Shown piece after piece: positions 13,785 through 23,121 of a DNA stretch of 32,802 nucleotides. The notes beneath the pieces are model-generated. The model had not been told where the DNA came from. It made no database searches and worked only from the letters and a program-made list of their open reading frames with translations. A program made the position numbers and the translations under genes. The first letter of the stretch is position 1. Each line of letters starts with the position of its first letter. Origin of the DNA: Marinitoga hydrogenitolerans DSM 16785 (GTDB lineage: Bacteria > Thermotogota > Thermotogae > Petrotogales > Petrotogaceae); contig NZ_FQUI01000025.1 in NCBI RefSeq assembly GCF_900129175.1, positions 1 through 32,802 of the forward strand, written 5' to 3'.

Positions 13785-15779
13785 ATGGTTAAAAAAATCT
13801 TTTTTTTGTGTTTAATTTTCATTTTGCTGTTCTCCTTATTTTCATGTGATCGTCTCCAACCTACAGAGGAAGGTAGTTTAAAATTTGTTGTAAAAGATAA
13901 AAACACAAACCTTCCTATTTCTGGTGCTCAAATAAAAATTACACAAAATGGTATTTTAAAAATCACCGCTCTTACTGATGAAAATGGAGAATACCTTTTT
14001 ACTTCAGATGCGGGAGAGTATAATTATGAAGTTTCAAAAATCTATTATCTTCCAACAAATGGTAACGCTAAAGTATATGCTAAAGAGCTGCGTTCAGTTA
14101 ATATTTTTTTAGAACCAACAGAAAATAACCCACCAAATTTCATAGGATACATTTCTCCATTAAATAATCAAATAGTTAAAGAAAAAACTGTTGATTTCCA
14201 ATGGAATGCTCAGGACATCGAGAACGATGCTATTTATTATAACATTTATCTAAAATATGTAGGAAATGAATTTCAAAAATTAAATACTCTTCCTTTAACA
14301 AATACACAATATACATATGAGCCACCATTTAAAGGAACATATCAATGGAGAATTGAACTCTGGGACAAACCAAATGAAAATTATAAAATCATAGTTTATG
14401 AAGCTCCACAATTTGATTACCAGCCCACATCCGATTCAACTATTAATCACAAACCAGAAATTTATTTAATATCTCCAGTTAATATAATAATTGAAAAATC
14501 AAATGTTACTTTCACATGGGAAGCTTCAGATCTGGATAAGGATCCTTTAACATTTGATCTCTTTCTCGGAAAATCTCAAAATAGCCTGGCAAATATTGTA
14601 TCTGACTACAATAAAACATCTTACACATACTCCCTCAGTTCTGTTGGAACATATTATTGGAAAATATTAGCCTATGATGGTAAAGAAACTTCTGAATCAA
14701 ATGTTTCTTCCTTTGAATATCTTCCTCCAGAGAATAACCCACCAATGATTTCACTTATAAGTCCAACAGATTATGCCACATTTGATACAAATGACATTCA
14801 ATTTAGTTGGATAGCTACTGATACAGACAATTCAACACTAAATTATAAATTATCGATTGGAAAAACAAATGCAAATATGACAGAAGTACTCTCGTTAGAT
14901 GAAGAAGATGAAAAAGAAATATCTTTTACATACAGATTACCGGAACCCGGTGATTTTTATTGGAATATTACAGTATCTGATGGAATTAATCCTTATGTGA
15001 ATAGTGAAATAAGAAAATTCACTATTATTTCTAATAATAATCCGCCTGTTATTGATGATAATCATAAACCAGATGTTGATACTGTAGTTGGAACACAGGT
15101 TTCATTTGAATGGAATGCATATGACCCAGAAGGTACACCTTTAACCTTTGATTTTTATCTCTCTGATATATATGATGAAGTAAACAATCTAATAGAAAAT
15201 ACCTATACTAGCACAAATTTAAATACAAAATTCTTAAAAGATGTAATTTTAGATTATTCTTCAACATATTTCTGGAGAATTGTTGCAAAAGATGGGATGT
15301 ATGAAATACCAGGCCCTATTTGGAGCTTTAATTTTATAAAAAAAGAAGAAGGAGCTTTAGCAGATTTATATTTCAATCCTGAAACATTGAACTTGAGTAA
15401 AAATTCAACAACTTCCTTCATAATAAAATCTTCATTTATCGAAAATATTTATGGTTTTGATATAAGAATTGGATATGATCCACTCTTTATTACAATAAAC
15501 CCTGATGAATGTTTGGAAAATAATGTCTTTAATAATGGTGATTTTCATATTATTAAAAAAGTCATAGAATATGATGACCATAATGAATTTATTTTTAGTA
15601 TTATTTCGAATTCCAATAACTTTAAAATACCAGAAAACATAATAGAAATCACATTACATTCTATTAATGATGGAAATACAAAAATAAAATTTGAAAAATC
15701 AACATATATTTTTGGACCAAATGAGCCAGAAATAATATTCTCAACAGGTGACTCTATAAAAGTCACCATCTCGGAATAA
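13785..15779 (+). CDS. lipoprotein with Fn3/Ig-like repeats and C-terminal cohesin-like module
   Basis: A 664-residue protein with a lipoprotein-like signal (LFSLFSC, Cys21; Phe at -2 is unusual for a lipobox). Residues ~30-110 form a carboxypeptidase-regulatory-like beta domain (SLKFVVKDKNTNLPISGAQI, then TDENGEYLF). Four Fn3/Ig-like repeats follow at ~115-213, 221-312, 317-414 and 419-518. They are marked by NNPP starts, FxW in strand B and a YxW motif near the end of each. The last ~140 residues (524-663) look like a cohesin: SFIIKSSFIENIYGFDIRIGYDP, then FSIISNSN and IIEITLHSINDG. It may present that cohesin on the outer surface to a dockerin partner; the next two genes each encode a candidate. 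A strong AAGGGGGTGG site is present. First gene of the operon; no convincing promoter was found in front of it. Confidence 0.78.
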   Translation: MVKKIFFLCLIFILLFSLFSCDRLQPTEEGSLKFVVKDKNTNLPISGAQIKITQNGILKITALTDENGEYLFTSDAGEYNYEVSKIYYLPTNGNAKVYAKELRSVNIFLEPTENNPPNFIGYISPLNNQIVKEKTVDFQWNAQDIENDAIYYNIYLKYVGNEFQKLNTLPLTNTQYTYEPPFKGTYQWRIELWDKPNENYKIIVYEAPQFDYQPTSDSTINHKPEIYLISPVNIIIEKSNVTFTWEASDLDKDPLTFDLFLGKSQNSLANIVSDYNKTSYTYSLSSVGTYYWKILAYDGKETSESNVSSFEYLPPENNPPMISLISPTDYATFDTNDIQFSWIATDTDNSTLNYKLSIGKTNANMTEVLSLDEEDEKEISFTYRLPEPGDFYWNITVSDGINPYVNSEIRKFTIISNNNPPVIDDNHKPDVDTVVGTQVSFEWNAYDPEGTPLTFDFYLSDIYDEVNNLIENTYTSTNLNTKFLKDVILDYSSTYFWRIVAKDGMYEIPGPIWSFNFIKKEEGALADLYFNPETLNLSKNSTTSFIIKSSFIENIYGFDIRIGYDPLFITINPDECLENNVFNNGDFHIIKKVIEYDDHNEFIFSIISNSNNFKIPENIIEITLHSINDGNTKIKFEKSTYIFGPNEPEIIFSTGDSIKVTISE

Positions 15780-15791
15780 GGGGGTGAAAGT

Positions 15792-18700
15792 ATGAAAAAA
15801 AGAACTTTATTTTTAATTGCGTTATTAATAATTTTTCTATTAACTTCTTGTTTTAATTTTAGAAATTCAGAAAATACTACAAAAGAAAATTTAAATTCTA
15901 TCCTTGTTGAAAAAAATGGTGATGAGTTTATAGTGAAATCAAATATAGAAGCTGATTCTTTTGAACTAACAATAGAAAATATAGATGCAAAAAATATTTA
16001 TATCCCTTCGGAATTTCTAAAAATAATAAAAAAAGAAAAATATTTAAAAATTGCTATTTCTTCACCAAAAACTATTCGTTCTGGAGATATTATTATGAAA
16101 ATAAATACGAGCAATTTTAAAATTAATAATGTTGAAACTTATAACAGATTTTCCATTACAAAAAATTTTGATTACTATGATAAAGGAGTTTCTTTTGGGT
16201 TATTAGGCGATTTTGATTTTGATGGTAGCGTCGGAATAAGTGATTTTTCATCATTTACAGTATTTTATGGCAGTGAAAGATCCAATTTTGATGGCAATAT
16301 GAAAGATTTTGATTTAATTGATATTGGCCCCGCTAAAAATTTCTCTCATAAAGGCATATGGAATGATATTTTTGATTTGGCAGTTCCTGATGGAAAAATT
16401 AGCTTATCAGATTTTTCTATTTTTGCATTTAATTATAGTAAAAATATTATTTCTTCCCAACCAACCATCGTAGTAAATGCAAATACTGATATTTCTGAAA
16501 TCCAGGATAATATAGAAAAAAATATTGTCAAGGGACTAAAACAAATTCCTACATTAATTAGCACTATTACAGATTTCATAACGAACAATCCTGATCTTAT
16601 AAACTCAATTTCATCTTCTTTTTTAACAGAAAGTTCTACACCAATTATAAAATATTTAATCAATATGACGGAGGCTACTGAAACTGCATTATTAACGATA
16701 ATAGAAGATATAAATGAATTTTCTAATCTACTTGGAAGTGTACAATATGGATATTTATATAATGATATTAAATTTGAAATAAATAATTTCGATTGGGATG
16801 GTGATGGAACCATTGAAGAAACTTCACCATTAATGTTAAAAATTAAAAATGATGATGGCAGTATTACAAACATGGAATTTTATAAACTTTTCAAGATATA
16901 TCCTGCTCCTCAAATTGTTGGAATTGATCAAAATGGTGGAGATGCTGTATTTGATTATGAATTATTTTTTGATGAGAATATAGATGAAAATTATACTCCT
17001 TCATTTGATAATAATGACTATCTGTTAATAGACGAAGGAACTGTTTCTGGTATAAGTTTAGTCACCAACATTATTGGTATTATAGGAAAAGCTTTATTTA
17101 TATATGATCTTAATAATCCTTCTTTAAATATCAAAAATGCTATAAATAATGATGAAAACTTGAAAAAATATATTTCTAATCTCTTAATTGATTTATTAAA
17201 AAACCCTCCTCCTGCTGATTCAGAAAAAATTTTGGGAGAAGAATTACAAAATTCAATATTTGGAAATATGTTAATCTTTAGAGATTATAATAAATCTATT
17301 GAATTAATTAACAACATCAAAAATGATTTATTGTCTCTTAATAAATTAATTAATGTATTTTTTGAAGATAAAATTATGGATTATATTGAAAATTCTCATG
17401 ACATAACTTCTGGTGAAAAACCTCCTGTTCCAGATTATATATTTAATAATTCAATGAATTTTTTAAAACAAATGGAAGATTTGGCTAATCTTATTAACAA
17501 TCCATCAGAAAGTGTAGAAATACCTATTGGATATAATCAATCTTTCAATTTATATCCGGGTATATATTTTGATAATCCCACAGATTTTTCAGATTTAAAT
17601 ATTTTCTTACCTGATATCTCTCTTATTTTAACTTATGATTCAACAGAACTTTTGTTCGAATTACCTGATTCTACATTTAAAGGTCTAATAGAAGGTTTAG
17701 ATTCAACATTTACTATTAATATAGAAGATTTAGGGAAAGAACAATATTTCATATATCAAGACGATATAAGCATTATTGGAACTTCTGTTACTTTAAGATG
17801 GCATTTATCCCCTGATTTAAATGCTACAATCACTTATGAAGTATTAATTGATACAAGTGAAGTAAATATTTGGAATTATATAGATGAATATATCAATTCT
17901 CAAGATCTGTTAAAATTTATCAAAACGTCTAATACACAAATTACTATTAATTTAAATGAAGGCGATTATTTCTGGGCTGTTATAGGATATGCTGATTTTG
18001 GAAATGGTAAAATCGAGAAAATATATCCTGAAAACCCTTATTGGTTTAGTGTATTTTCAGAAGAAAATTATTATTTCATAGATCTTATAAAACCTGAATA
18101 TGATAGACATTTCACAGAGTCACCAACTATTATTAATTTTGAATGGCAAGCATATTTTCATCAAAATAATGAAAATATTAATATCGATGCGGATTACTAT
18201 ATACTTCATATTGAACAATTAACTGAACCTTGGAATTACTATGATTATCAACTAACTACGACTTCAATTTCTCTTGAATTAGAAAGTGGTATATATGGCT
18301 GGTGGGTTGAAGGATACTACACTAATCCAGATACATTTGAAAATATAGACTTGGATAGCCAATATAATAAATTTAAAGTCGGAACCGTTGAGGAAGTTAC
18401 ATATTTTTATCCTATAGAACCTCCAGAATTTATTCAAGCACCTATTGATACTACATCTATGGAAATATATTTCAAATGGGGGGTTAATAATTTACCTACA
18501 GAAAAATCATCAAATGATATATTTAAATTATATTATAGAGATGAAGATTCTGAAAATTGGCAAGTTTTTGAAGATATTGATACAATTCGGAACGATGAAT
18601 TTGGAAATTATGAAGCTGAAGCCTTCGTTGATGGATTTTTACCTAATACCTCATACGAATGGAAAATACGAGCTTATATCAATGATAGTGATTATATTGA

Positions 18701-20426
18701 AGGCCCAATATGGTATTTCTATATTGAAGAAAGCATATTACTATTAGATTTACATTCAATTCATCCTCTTGATGGGGAAGCAACCACAACTTTAACAAAT
18801 GAGATAGAATTTATATGGGGATATGATCCTGAATATATTGGAAATTTTGAATTACATATAAAACCTATTGATACATGGGATAACACATATGATACAATAG
18901 TAACTCCAACAGATTATGCAACAGATACAGATCCTGTCACCGGAGAAATAACCTTTAATTTTACAAAGATCTTGCCTGATGGCATTTATAAATGGTGGGT
19001 ATCTATTCCTACTGAAAATTATGATAATTATAAAGAAACAGAACATAGATGGTTATTTGTTAACACAGATGCTTATAAAGTATTATTGGATTATCCAGAA
19101 CCAATGTCTATATTTGATTATTATACTATTTCATTTGGTTGGCATACTAATTATTTTATTACTGAACATTTAAATGATTTAATTTTTGAAATAATGGATG
19201 AAGATGGTAATATTATATATTCAGAACCAACAAATAGCGATAATTGGACTTATGTTACATTTGAAAATGAAGGTTTATATTCATGGTATTTAAAAGATTT
19301 TAATGAAAATATTGTTAGTGCCAAATTTGCTTTTGAAATACAAGATTGGTGGTCTCCAACTGAAGAAAATATAATAAATCTATACAATCCGCTAAATGGT
19401 GAAATATTTATTTCTACTGAACCATATACAAATCTAACTTTTTCATGGGAAAATATTGATAATATTTATGATTATTCATTCCAGCTCACATCTGCAAAAA
19501 AATTCATCGAGACTTCAGTTGGTTATATTGAAAATTTCGATTATCCACAAAATAATTACTATAACTTGGAATTAAAAGATGGAATTTACCTGTGGTTAGT
19601 TGAAACAAATGATCTTGAATACAGCAAGTATTATATATCTCCTATAAGAAGTTTTAATATTTTAAAAAATAATGATTTAAAACTAGATATAGATGGACCT
19701 TCTAATATGGAAAGATCTACTCCTTTAGATAAAATATCATTTATTGCAACAAGTTTATCAAATTCTCAGATAAAGTATTATGTTTTAATGATGAATGATT
19801 GGGGTGAAGTATCCACAAAACCAAATATTTTTGAAAATGATTTAATTGGTAATTCTGGTGATATTATGGAAATAGAGTTATGGGAACTATTTAACGGACA
19901 AGAATATGATGGTATTTATTACTATGCTGTAATAGCTGATGATGGAAATAATATAATAATTTCACCTGTAAAATCATTTATGTATGATAACACGTTATAT
20001 AATAATTTTGTTAGATTTAGTAAAGATCAAATTAATTTAACTGACACAGCCACCTTTTCTATTATTACACAAGGAAATGATATAAATGATGTGAGAGGGT
20101 TAGAGATTTATTTAAAGGTTGATCCAGAATCAATATCTATTGATTCCAGTTCTTTGAAAATTGGTTCTAATAATGGTTTTATTAAGTCATCTATTAAATC
20201 AAATAATTGGAATAATGAGGAATATATGGAGATTATCATTTCTATATATTCAGATTCAAGTTTTGATTTATCCAATACAGAAATTGCAGAATTTGAAATA
20301 AGTAAAAAAGGACTTTTTGCTAATACTTTTATTGATATTATTGATGGTTTTGTATTATTCAAAGATAATACTACACCTATTAGACTTGAAATTGAAAACA
20401 ATATAGAAATAACAGATTCAGAGTGA
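15792..20426 (+). CDS. large lipoprotein with N-terminal dockerin-like and C-terminal cohesin-like modules
   Basis: A 1544-residue lipoprotein (LLTSC, Cys20). A short beta-rich module (~36-122) precedes a dockerin-like doublet at ~137-218. The first calcium loop is complete: Asp140, Asp142, Asp144, Gly145, Val147, Asp151. After a DIGPA insert, the second loop (PDGKISLSDF) keeps Asp200, Gly201, Ile203 and Asp207 but not positions 1 and 3. Another acidic loop, DWDGDG, is at 334-339. Residues ~220-650 are homologous to the next protein. About seven Ig/Fn3-like repeats (~655-1400) follow, often ending in a YxWxV-type strand. The C-terminal ~140 residues (from ~1404) resemble a cohesin (ATFSIITQGNDINDVRGLEIYLKVDP). 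It starts 12 bases after the previous stop with an AAGGGGGTGA site. It could be an adaptor bridging two partners. No catalytic motif was recognised. Confidence 0.78.
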   Translation: MKKRTLFLIALLIIFLLTSCFNFRNSENTTKENLNSILVEKNGDEFIVKSNIEADSFELTIENIDAKNIYIPSEFLKIIKKEKYLKIAISSPKTIRSGDIIMKINTSNFKINNVETYNRFSITKNFDYYDKGVSFGLLGDFDFDGSVGISDFSSFTVFYGSERSNFDGNMKDFDLIDIGPAKNFSHKGIWNDIFDLAVPDGKISLSDFSIFAFNYSKNIISSQPTIVVNANTDISEIQDNIEKNIVKGLKQIPTLISTITDFITNNPDLINSISSSFLTESSTPIIKYLINMTEATETALLTIIEDINEFSNLLGSVQYGYLYNDIKFEINNFDWDGDGTIEETSPLMLKIKNDDGSITNMEFYKLFKIYPAPQIVGIDQNGGDAVFDYELFFDENIDENYTPSFDNNDYLLIDEGTVSGISLVTNIIGIIGKALFIYDLNNPSLNIKNAINNDENLKKYISNLLIDLLKNPPPADSEKILGEELQNSIFGNMLIFRDYNKSIELINNIKNDLLSLNKLINVFFEDKIMDYIENSHDITSGEKPPVPDYIFNNSMNFLKQMEDLANLINNPSESVEIPIGYNQSFNLYPGIYFDNPTDFSDLNIFLPDISLILTYDSTELLFELPDSTFKGLIEGLDSTFTINIEDLGKEQYFIYQDDISIIGTSVTLRWHLSPDLNATITYEVLIDTSEVNIWNYIDEYINSQDLLKFIKTSNTQITINLNEGDYFWAVIGYADFGNGKIEKIYPENPYWFSVFSEENYYFIDLIKPEYDRHFTESPTIINFEWQAYFHQNNENINIDADYYILHIEQLTEPWNYYDYQLTTTSISLELESGIYGWWVEGYYTNPDTFENIDLDSQYNKFKVGTVEEVTYFYPIEPPEFIQAPIDTTSMEIYFKWGVNNLPTEKSSNDIFKLYYRDEDSENWQVFEDIDTIRNDEFGNYEAEAFVDGFLPNTSYEWKIRAYINDSDYIEGPIWYFYIEESILLLDLHSIHPLDGEATTTLTNEIEFIWGYDPEYIGNFELHIKPIDTWDNTYDTIVTPTDYATDTDPVTGEITFNFTKILPDGIYKWWVSIPTENYDNYKETEHRWLFVNTDAYKVLLDYPEPMSIFDYYTISFGWHTNYFITEHLNDLIFEIMDEDGNIIYSEPTNSDNWTYVTFENEGLYSWYLKDFNENIVSAKFAFEIQDWWSPTEENIINLYNPLNGEIFISTEPYTNLTFSWENIDNIYDYSFQLTSAKKFIETSVGYIENFDYPQNNYYNLELKDGIYLWLVETNDLEYSKYYISPIRSFNILKNNDLKLDIDGPSNMERSTPLDKISFIATSLSNSQIKYYVLMMNDWGEVSTKPNIFENDLIGNSGDIMEIELWELFNGQEYDGIYYYAVIADDGNNIIISPVKSFMYDNTLYNNFVRFSKDQINLTDTATFSIITQGNDINDVRGLEIYLKVDPESISIDSSSLKIGSNNGFIKSSIKSNNWNNEEYMEIIISIYSDSSFDLSNTEIAEFEISKKGLFANTFIDIIDGFVLFKDNTTPIRLEIENNIEITDSE

Positions 20427-20441
20427 AAGGGGGGATTTTGA

Positions 20442-23078
20442 ATGCGCAACTATAAAATTATATTATTTATTGTAATAATAGCATTATTATTAATAGGTTG
20501 TGTAAGAGAAACCAATAATTTAAAAAATAATTTAGATAATAATATAACTAATATTATTTATATTGAGTCTTTTGAAAATATTTCTTTCATTAAATCAAAA
20601 ATAGAAGCAGATTCTTTTGAATTTTTAATTGAGAATATCACATCTGATAAAATTGAAATCCCACCATCTTTTATGAGTATTATAAAAGAAAAGGACGGAA
20701 AGATACTTGTGGCTGTTTCTACCTCTGGAATTGCAGAAATTGGGGATACACTTTTAAAAATTCATTCAAAAAATTTCAAAATAGAAAAAATCAATTACTT
20801 TTCAAGGACTTCTATAAATAAAGATTTTGAAGAATGGAACCCTTATAATTGGAAGTGGGGTGGATTACTTGGAGATTTCAATTTAGATGGAAAGGTTGGT
20901 TTAACCGACTTTGCTTCGTTTATATACTATTATGGAATGGACCCATGGGAAGAAAATGTACCTCCTGAATTTTCAAGATTTGATATAGGACCTGCATTAA
21001 ATATTGTTAAAAAAGATATATGGTCTAATATATATGATTATAAATTAGAAGACTGGAAGGTTAATATAATAGATTTCTCAATTTTTACAGCTAATTTTGG
21101 TTATGATATTACGTTAATTCCTACACCTGAAATAATAACTTTAAACTCAAACACTGATATTTCTGCTATCTCAACAGAAACTTATAGAAATATCGCTTAT
21201 GTGTTTTTAAATACTCCATCATTAGCGAATGATGTCATGTCTATTTTAAATAATCATAGTAATTTTATAAATTCAATATTCTTATCTTTAGAAAATAATG
21301 ATATTTTCGAATTAATTACAAATATAATTAATATGCCTGATTCGCTTGAAACCTCTATAATAAATTTAATAGAAAAGATTGGCAACTATGCTCAAAATTT
21401 AAAGCTAGATAATTATCTTGATGCAAATTTTAAATGGGAAATAAATGATTTTGATTGGAATGGTGATGGTATAATTAATAATGATATTGAACTACATATT
21501 GAAGCAACTGTAACATATACCGATAATCCTGAACCACAAAGAAAAAGTTTAGGTTTATATACAGATCTAATATTAAAAGATTACCAAAATATTGAAAGTA
21601 TAGAATTTATTGGCATTGATAAAAACACCTTGGGTGATGCTATATTCGATTGGGAATTACTAGAACAATTTAAAAACCAGGGATTTGCTGATGATGGATA
21701 TTCCCCAACATTTGATACTAACGACTATTTAATCATTGATGAAGGATTTATCTCCATGCTATCTTTTATATTAAACAATATTTATATTCCAAGTAAAGGA
21801 CTATTCTTATATAATCTGACTACACCTTCTGCAACATTTACAGATATTATCGCATCAGAAACACCAGAAGCTTCATTCATGGAGTTATTTTATAATCTGA
21901 CTGATGATTATATTATTACTAAGGAAGAATTAATAAACAATATTTTAGGGAATATGTTAAACGCAAGGGATAATTTATTTGAAACAAGTGTTGCATCTAT
22001 TCAAAATTCTATACTTTCTTTAAAAGATTCTATAAATTATAGTTTACAGGATTCCATAATGGATTATTTATATCAAGATCATGACATTACATCTGGACCA
22101 ATGGATTTATTTTCAACGTGGGAACTATTTTATCAAAATATTACAAACTTAGCAATTACGGATATAAATTATCCAATGCATATAGGGGGTAATGTTATAT
22201 TATACCCTGCAGTATTTTTTGAAAATCCAGAAAAATTTAAAGATTTAAATATATACTTGCCAGAAATAACATTAGAAGGGACTATGAATGTAGAATCGAT
22301 AGAAATAGAAACTATAACCATTAATTTCCCCAATGCTCATTTTGGAGGATTAATCAGCGGAATTGAAAATCCATTAATAATATCTACTATTGATTTCAAT
22401 CAACAAAATATGCAAGAACCTCAAATAACAGATTATGAAATAGAGGGTATAACAAGAATACGACCAGATGAATTTGGTAATCCCACTCCAGAATTAGCTT
22501 TAAGATTTGATGTAAATATTTCTAATCCTGAAAACGTAAAAAATGTCGAAGTATGGAAAAATGACGTATATATAACTGATTTATATTTTGAAAAAGATAA
22601 TTATTATTATAATGAAAAAATTTTTGATGTTTCTAATTTAAACTCTTATGAAAATACTAATTATACTATAAAAGTGTACGATTATAATGATAATATAGTT
22701 GATACAAAAAACATATATTTAGGTGCATTATATCCAGAAAACACTTTGGAAATAACATCCCCAAATAATTTTAATACATATTATTACGGAGAATCCATCA
22801 CCCTTCAATGGAATAATAACTTAACTTTATTTTATGAAGGTGCTGAAATTAATGTAGCAAAAATTGATGAAACAACATATATGGTTGATTGGGAAAATAG
22901 AATAAGAGTTGCTGATGATTATGATCCAGATACTCCAAATTTTTCAATAACTGATCTATCTTATAATATTCCTGCTAATATTTTTGATTCGTCAGGTATG
23001 TATTTAGTTGAATTGGTTATTTATAATTGGTCGGAAAACACTTCATTTGAATACCATATAATTATAAATATACTATAA
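20442..23078 (+). CDS. lipoprotein with N-terminal dockerin-like module, paralogue of the preceding protein
   Basis: An 878-residue lipoprotein (LLIGC, Cys20), paralogous to the first ~650 residues of the preceding protein; blocks such as IEADSFE, SNTDIS, SPTFDTNDYLIIDEG and DHDITSG are shared. The dockerin-like doublet is at ~141-220. Loop 1 is complete (Asp145, Asn147, Asp149, Gly150, Val152, Asp156). The second (LEDWKVNIIDF) has Asp204 and Asp211 but Trp replaces Gly. DWNGDG at 338-343 corresponds to the extra acidic loop of its paralogue. The C-terminal ~215 residues hold Ig-like segments (ALRFDVNISNPENVKNVEVW and ITSPNNFNTYYYGESITLQW). There is no cohesin-like end, so it could be a terminal component of the assembly. 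It begins 15 bases after the previous stop with an AAAGGGGGGAT site and ends at a strong terminator. Confidence 0.75.
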   Translation: MRNYKIILFIVIIALLLIGCVRETNNLKNNLDNNITNIIYIESFENISFIKSKIEADSFEFLIENITSDKIEIPPSFMSIIKEKDGKILVAVSTSGIAEIGDTLLKIHSKNFKIEKINYFSRTSINKDFEEWNPYNWKWGGLLGDFNLDGKVGLTDFASFIYYYGMDPWEENVPPEFSRFDIGPALNIVKKDIWSNIYDYKLEDWKVNIIDFSIFTANFGYDITLIPTPEIITLNSNTDISAISTETYRNIAYVFLNTPSLANDVMSILNNHSNFINSIFLSLENNDIFELITNIINMPDSLETSIINLIEKIGNYAQNLKLDNYLDANFKWEINDFDWNGDGIINNDIELHIEATVTYTDNPEPQRKSLGLYTDLILKDYQNIESIEFIGIDKNTLGDAIFDWELLEQFKNQGFADDGYSPTFDTNDYLIIDEGFISMLSFILNNIYIPSKGLFLYNLTTPSATFTDIIASETPEASFMELFYNLTDDYIITKEELINNILGNMLNARDNLFETSVASIQNSILSLKDSINYSLQDSIMDYLYQDHDITSGPMDLFSTWELFYQNITNLAITDINYPMHIGGNVILYPAVFFENPEKFKDLNIYLPEITLEGTMNVESIEIETITINFPNAHFGGLISGIENPLIISTIDFNQQNMQEPQITDYEIEGITRIRPDEFGNPTPELALRFDVNISNPENVKNVEVWKNDVYITDLYFEKDNYYYNEKIFDVSNLNSYENTNYTIKVYDYNDNIVDTKNIYLGALYPENTLEITSPNNFNTYYYGESITLQWNNNLTLFYEGAEINVAKIDETTYMVDWENRIRVADDYDPDTPNFSITDLSYNIPANIFDSSGMYLVELVIYNWSENTSFEYHIIINIL

Positions 23079-23082
23079 TATA

Positions 23083-23121
23083 AAAAGTATAGCTTCTGCT
23101 TTTTGCAGAAGCTATACTTTT
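23083..23121. terminator. long bidirectional terminator closing the lipoprotein operon
   Basis: A perfect 17-base stem (23083-23099 with 23105-23121) has a five-T loop. It is followed by T-rich sequence on the plus strand and by TTTATATTATAG on the minus strand. The stop codon of the convergent DUF47 gene (23112-23114) lies inside the right arm. Confidence 0.9.

Follow-up and report, generated by a model that had tools for sequence, protein, structure and literature searches.

The window analysed here, a stretch of 32,802 nucleotides from the heat-loving marine bacterium Marinitoga hydrogenitolerans DSM 16785, contains three consecutive genes (A, B and C) for predicted lipoproteins, two of which encode near their N-termini a doublet resembling a dockerin. 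The locus raises the question of whether these doublets are dockerins, how many calcium ions they would hold, and which partner they would bind. All three genes lie on the plus strand and, counted from the stop codons, are separated by gaps of 12 bases (A-B) and 15 bases (B-C):

13785..15776, + strand: gene A, 664-aa predicted lipoprotein, lipobox LFSC; stop codon 15777-15779
15792..20423, + strand: gene B, 1544-aa predicted lipoprotein, lipobox LTSC; stop codon 20424-20426
20442..23075, + strand: gene C, 878-aa predicted lipoprotein, lipobox LIGC; stop codon 23076-23078
23083..23121, + strand: terminator-like hairpin of 17 pairs, directly 3' of C

The hairpin search returned 3 structures against 2.3 expected by chance, which makes this signal weak when taken alone, and found none in the A-B and B-C gaps; promoter-like sites (89 against 82.3 expected) were not above chance. 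Protein A contains tandem Ig/Fn3-like modules and no dockerin was found in it. B bears a dockerin at its N-terminus and a cohesin-like domain at its C-terminus, and C a dockerin at its N-terminus, with no cohesin detected in a cohesin profile scan. None of the three carries a glycoside hydrolase domain above the Pfam cut-off, the Glyco_hydro_94 match in the cohesin region of A being sub-threshold (15.5 bits vs a cut-off of 27). The three proteins are presumably located at the envelope surface. The A-B-C set is preserved in five Marinitoga genomes, the source genome included (other loci L035-L038). Orthologous ORFs in genomes G040 and G041 are broken into pieces (L037:8804-13521, L036:5034-11693, L051:2949-7516), and in G040 the break of the B orthologue, be it a sequencing error or real, sits inside the second dockerin loop. 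B and C also share a 430-residue body (16464-17744 and 21123-22415, respectively) without any Pfam match, which is present in 14 of 103 Thermotogota genomes, several of them without a detected split dockerin.

Single-sequence searches of Pfam, NCBIfam and the PDB with the window proteins revealed no dockerin (for B and C in Pfam, none at E<=10), and the two modules scored below threshold in PF00404 (12.1 bits vs a cut-off of 22.9). A seed profile was built from three paralogues of the source genome, namely B, C and a third protein encoded on contig C8, and its relatives were found in 33 of the 103 Thermotogota genomes (E<=0.001). Four fragments, comprising two broken or cut genes (L037_8804 and L027) and two L051 pieces, were dropped from the 49 family members, and 29 of the remaining 45 were chosen as the rows of alignment A2; wider relatives beyond Thermotogota were gathered with a 7-row alignment (A3). 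Only the family profile of 29 rows found dockerins, matching the solved structures 2y3n_B (E 6.6e-9), 6kg9 (5.9e-6) and 2b59 (3.3e-5), and 21 of these 29 rows matched PF00404 with E<=1, the lowest value being 1.1e-5. The proposal of an earlier note that both paralogues contain a dockerin-like doublet, located N-terminally, was therefore borne out by profile searches against PDB dockerins and PF00404:

16200..16448, + strand: dockerin module of B, residues 137-219
20862..21107, + strand: dockerin module of C, residues 141-222

An N-terminal dockerin is unusual among classical cellulosomal enzymes, and to that extent the emphasis placed on this location was justified, but within the Thermotogota split-loop family it is the common arrangement, with 35 of the 45 modules N-terminal or mid-protein and 10 C-terminal. 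We filed the modules as variant dockerins rather than canonical type I, a split second loop being already accepted in dockerins of R. flavefaciens.

The doublet had been described as one complete and one degenerate calcium loop, the latter devoid of positions 1 and 3. Loop 1 indeed shows all the acidic or Asn positions (1, 3, 5 and 12) in both B and C. In loop 2, the absence of position 1 proved to be a misreading: this ligand is the Asp of a conserved 'DIGP' (D177 in B, D181 in C), which sits 30 residues ahead of position 12 because a 19-residue insert splits the loop:

16209..16244, + strand: calcium loop 1 of B, DFDFDGSVGISD, 12 contiguous residues (D140/D142/D144/D151)
20874-20909, + strand: calcium loop 1 of C, DFNLDGKVGLTD (D145/N147/D149/D156)
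16320..16328, + strand: loop 2 of B, first part, DIG, positions 1-3 (D177)
16329..16385, + strand: 19-residue insert in loop 2 of B, residues 180-198, modelled as a hairpin (pLDDT ~68-83)
16386..16412, + strand: loop 2 of B, second part, PDGKISLSD, positions 4-12 (D200 and D207)
20982-20990, 20991-21047 and 21048-21074, + strand: loop 2 of C, consisting of DIG, the insert and EDWKVNIID

Among the 45 Thermotogota members, an Asp occupies loop-2 position 1 in 44, position 5 in 38 and position 12 in all 45, counts that include close relatives and hence rows that are not independent; B and C have all three. The outer ligands (positions 1 and 12) are conserved about as well as the ligands of loop 1. 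In the ten C-terminal-type members, position 5, where their alignment is less certain, is Asp in only 5. The insert measures 14-24 residues across the family and 19 in both B and C, and the family consensus reads 'YDIGPA...W..IYD...PDGKI...DF'. Canonical relatives (Latescibacterota and others) lack the insert and align with the loop parts flanking it, the DIGP Asp falling on position 1 and PDG on positions 4-6; L067 (Latescibacteria), for instance, has the canonical second loop 'YDLDKNGRIGLGDF'. The remaining observations on loop 2 hold: position 3 offers no side-chain ligand (Gly, Ala, Tyr or Ser in 44 of 45 members, Asn in one), and Gly is replaced by Trp in C (W205), which is not a sequencing error since the Trp is conserved in 4 family sequences, all of the C type. 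The two loops are thus asymmetric as stated, but the second is interrupted by an insert, not degenerate. Conservation of two full loops among homologues, which would have pointed to errors here, was found by half, both sites being kept and the second in split form.

Split second loops also occur outside Thermotogota. Three loci of the bacterium CSMAG_2043 (L072, L073 and L109) show DIAP followed by about 12 extra residues, and L116 (genome G104, Latescibacterota) probably carries a split loop as well. A split-loop pattern run over the outgroup gave 23 canonical, 0 split and 3 neither (two of these look canonical by eye), besides further rows without a loop-1 match, a zero that means little as the pattern missed the CSMAG_2043 and L116 rows by its loop-1 rule and caught only 35 of the 49 family members. 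The dockerins of papain-like proteases of Thermotogota read 'DISFPEDG' or 'DIGYPKDG', with just two extra residues in loop 2, small inserts that make a stepwise origin of the longer one possible. In the third paralogue, on contig C8 (L054:5040-13849), loop 1 contains about 7 extra residues (GDFDDISRGLSKDKVVNINDF), indicating that this loop can be split too.

Candidate partners were found in the two proteins encoded upstream of the dockerin genes:

15357..15776, + strand: cohesin-like domain at the C-terminus of A, residues 525-664
19977..20423, + strand: cohesin-like domain at the C-terminus of B, residues 1396-1544

All 5 orthologues of A matched PF00963 over the C-terminal 140 residues with E<=1, the lowest value being 3.9e-5; the domain encoded in the window stayed below the cut-off (E 0.24, 12.0 bits vs 24.1). 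Profile-profile comparison (hhalign) aligned it at 96.9% with the Pfam-recognised cohesins adjoining C8-type dockerin genes, 8 of 9 of which matched PF00963. None of 5 orthologues of the B C-terminus matched PF00963; by hhalign this region scored 95.1% to the domain of A and 88.9% to the C8-type cohesins. Its AF2 model (pLDDT 83.0, pTM 0.80) was closest in Foldseek to the cohesin 4dh2_A (E 2.1e-7), and VIA placed it on 2vo8 with a Z of 14.8 and an rmsd of 2.2 A over 131 aligned residues, the leading rows being all cohesins. The B C-terminus is, as modelled, a cohesin fold. Against PDB sequences, the domain profiles of A and B found no cohesin and those of the C8-type domains a weak match (best E 0.0015).

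We then asked how often a dockerin gene follows a gene ending in a cohesin-like domain, using two cohesin profiles built from 10 and 33 sequences and counting only dockerin genes with an upstream same-strand ORF in view. This was so for 29 of the 34 dockerin genes of the N-terminal/mid type, compared to 6 of 184 control pairs in which the downstream gene is not a dockerin gene (Fisher's test 4e-25, on related genes and with training sequences included). Eighteen of the 34 upstream domains belonged to the profile training set, and outside it 11 of 16 were positive, one of them within a broken gene (L051). The five negatives were the second genes of L042 and L044, L047, one L051 piece and L084. 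Among C-terminal-type (Thermotoga-like) dockerin genes the upstream cohesin appeared in 1 of 11, that one being a contig-truncated N-type gene. At the genome level, all 16 Thermotogota genomes with a PF00963 match fell among the 33 of 103 with a dockerin (chance 5e-10), the same protein often carrying both domains. Two other arrangements were seen: in three loci of family f7 (L083-L085) the cohesin lies in the downstream gene instead, and in another Marinitoga genome (G041, L043:4273-11000) a C8-type dockerin gene faces the cohesin gene, as if inverted.

The reading that we favour, and regard as rather probable when taken as a whole, is that of a split-loop calcium dockerin that binds the cohesin of the upstream protein and links A, B and C into a chain. 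The split loop 2 would keep its ligands D177, D200 and D207 (positions 1, 5 and 12), with backbone oxygens at positions 3 and 7 presumably completing the calcium site, and by analogy with the insert-bearing ScaA dockerin the module would very likely bind two calcium ions. As a guess based on gene order, each dockerin would most likely bind the C-terminal cohesin-like domain of the preceding gene's product, so that the A cohesin would pair with the B dockerin and the B cohesin with the C dockerin. The gene-order rule gives A-B-C as the simplest wiring, and A, with just a cohesin, B, with both domains, and C, with just a dockerin, could then form a three-link chain of fixed length made of co-expressed envelope lipoproteins. 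The geometry of the lipid anchors counts against this chain: the lipoboxes are N-terminal and the dockerin lies about 115 residues from the lipid, so that a cohesin at the C-terminus would have to fold back towards it or extend from another membrane. The loop-2 hairpin would mark one face of the dockerin, where it would exclude a second binding mode or else act as a buttress for the preceding module. A single binding mode is plausible by analogy, yet asymmetry alone does not imply it, because the two helix faces of the B dockerin are still partly alike (6 of 14 positions identical) and because type III dockerins, in which the second canonical loop is absent, still show dual-binding behaviour according to the accessible portion of a 2025 review (PMC12484212). 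A bolder extension, which we consider doubtful, is a non-cellulosomal system throughout the phylum Thermotogota, where split-loop dockerins and C-terminal cohesins of consecutive genes would join lipoproteins head to tail; in Marinitoga the chain would have exactly three links, since it would start with a protein that has no dockerin and end with one that has no cohesin, and the N-terminal lipid anchors could connect inner membrane and toga.

The structure predicted for the N-terminal region of B bears on the best of the rival explanations. An AF2 model of residues 21-228 (13 rows; pLDDT 82.7, pTM 0.80; model number k is B residue k+20) shows a seven-strand module, a linker with a pLDDT of about 50 and three dockerin-like helices (129-138, 150-156 and 185-194 in model numbers). 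Two isolated bridge residues, 126 and 182, fall one in each calcium loop, as in paired EF-type loops; the insert forms a hairpin closed by two short strands, 161-162 and 176-177. Foldseek (best E 4.7e-3, moderate) and VIA matched the seven-strand module only. The module is cohesin-like in fold, with moderate VIA matches to 2vo8, a C. perfringens cohesin (Z 8.4), and to 2xdh (Z 7.5):

15894..16154, + strand: membrane-proximal beta module of B ahead of the dockerin, cohesin-like fold, shorter than a cohesin

A cohesin-like module likewise precedes the dockerin in C, by homology, and in many homologues. The dockerin might therefore pack in cis on this module, forming an X-module/dockerin dyad with the insert as a buttress and no partner among the neighbours, as the pTM of the two-domain model and the description of the CttA loop insert as an X-module buttress (available text of PMC5934362) would suggest. 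We judge this unlikely as a full account: the linker is poorly defined in the model, and an upstream C-terminal cohesin is kept in L045, L046, L078-L080 and L082, where the dockerin protein lacks a full cohesin in cis. Packing in cis and binding of an upstream partner are in any case compatible.

Less probable still is the version put forward earlier, a degenerate dockerin holding one calcium ion, with a dead loop 2 and a single binding mode. The missing side chain at position 3, the Trp at Gly6 in C and its relatives and the loss of contiguity would fit a dead loop, in which the near-invariant Asp residues at positions 1 and 12 (44/45 and 45/45) are unexpected. Moreover, the crystal structure of the insert-bearing ScaA dockerin, as given in the accessible part of PMC5934362, coordinates two calcium ions. 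That the doublet is an EF-hand-like module serving structure only, stabilised by calcium and lacking any cohesin partner, might be suggested by the Thermotoga-type relatives that carry the module without an upstream cohesin gene, but is very improbable because cohesin genes recur beside dockerin genes in other lineages.

Returning to the split-loop dockerin with an upstream partner, its nearest known parallel is the ScaA dockerin of R. flavefaciens (5n5p), whose loop 2 contains an insert of 12 residues and which coordinates two calcium ions and is reported to be single-mode (PMC5934362, sections accessible). Both have Asp at n and at the equivalent of n+11, have lost the n+2 side chain and invite the inference of a single mode; they differ in insert length (12 there, 19 here and 14-24 in the family), in the n+4 acid, absent from ScaA and kept here in 38 of 45 members, in the cellulosomal scaffoldin nature of ScaA, and in the DIGP motif, which the accessible sections of that paper do not report. 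The CttA X-dockerin (4iu2/4iu3), to which the family profile gave a weak match (4iu2_B), carries a 13-residue insert in the same loop and a module ahead of the dockerin, but has two further inserts and binds the ScaE cohesin in a cellulosome; according to the same sections, the ScaA and CttA inserts share no significant identity. With type I dockerins (PF00404) the modules have in common loop 1, the helices as predicted, the outer ligands of loop 2 and the DF..FA.NYG core, and they differ in the split of loop 2 and in scoring below the Pfam cut-off. The B C-terminal fold resembles the non-cellulosomal cohesins of Archaeoglobus fulgidus (2xdh) and Clostridium perfringens (2vo8, 2w1n) with VIA Z values of 13.4-14.8 at only 6-11% identity; those of C. 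perfringens are parts of glycoside hydrolases, whereas B has no such domain by Pfam. A cellulosome combines a scaffoldin bearing several cohesins with carbohydrate-active enzymes that carry dockerins; as A and B end in one cohesin-like domain apiece and no glycoside hydrolase scored above cut-off, the locus does not qualify as one.

Neither the insert nor the N-terminal location is new in kind, given the ScaA and CttA inserts and the N-terminal dockerin of R. flavefaciens Rf GH16_21 (PMC12484212, accessible portion). In the open-licence literature, no paper naming both 'dockerin' and 'Marinitoga' was found, and none of those naming dockerin and Thermotogae dealt with Thermotogota dockerins as far as their titles and the beginnings of their abstracts tell. 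What appears to be new relative to that literature is that a split-loop family whose outer ligands are conserved extends across a lineage and is tied to C-terminal cohesins of neighbouring genes outside cellulosomes. An EF-type calcium site may thus accommodate a hairpin that interrupts its loop midway. The misreading of loop 2 corrected here would be repeated by motif searches, because Pfam misses both modules of the window. Candidate cohesin-dockerin pairs encoded by gene order, outside the cellulosome and in a phylum with an unusual envelope, can also be tested.

Other dockerins were observed in Thermotogota. In a second type of cohesin-dockerin gene pair, the gene of a lipoprotein ending in a cohesin immediately precedes that of a papain-like protease ending in a dockerin:

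L096:33-2968, + strand: lipoprotein/papain-like protease pair (cohesin PF00963 E 7e-7, protease PF00112 8e-26, dockerin PF00404 6e-8)
L098:3416-6297, + strand: lipoprotein/papain-like protease pair
L097:3301-6113, + strand: lipoprotein/papain-like protease pair

In Marinitoga, the protease occurred in only one of 7 genomes (G042). C-terminal split dockerins of the 'YDIGPRxDF' type were found in proteins of about 850-936 aa (L049, L050, L086, L087, L089-L092 and L094), whose upstream same-strand ORFs, of 511-610 aa where in view, had no detected cohesin-like domain, that of L049 showing Ig-like Pfam matches. Finally, a split dockerin ends an M6-type metallopeptidase (L093:5924-7519, - strand; PF05547 E 6e-26), which a piece at L048:2521-3294 (- strand) resembles by eye.
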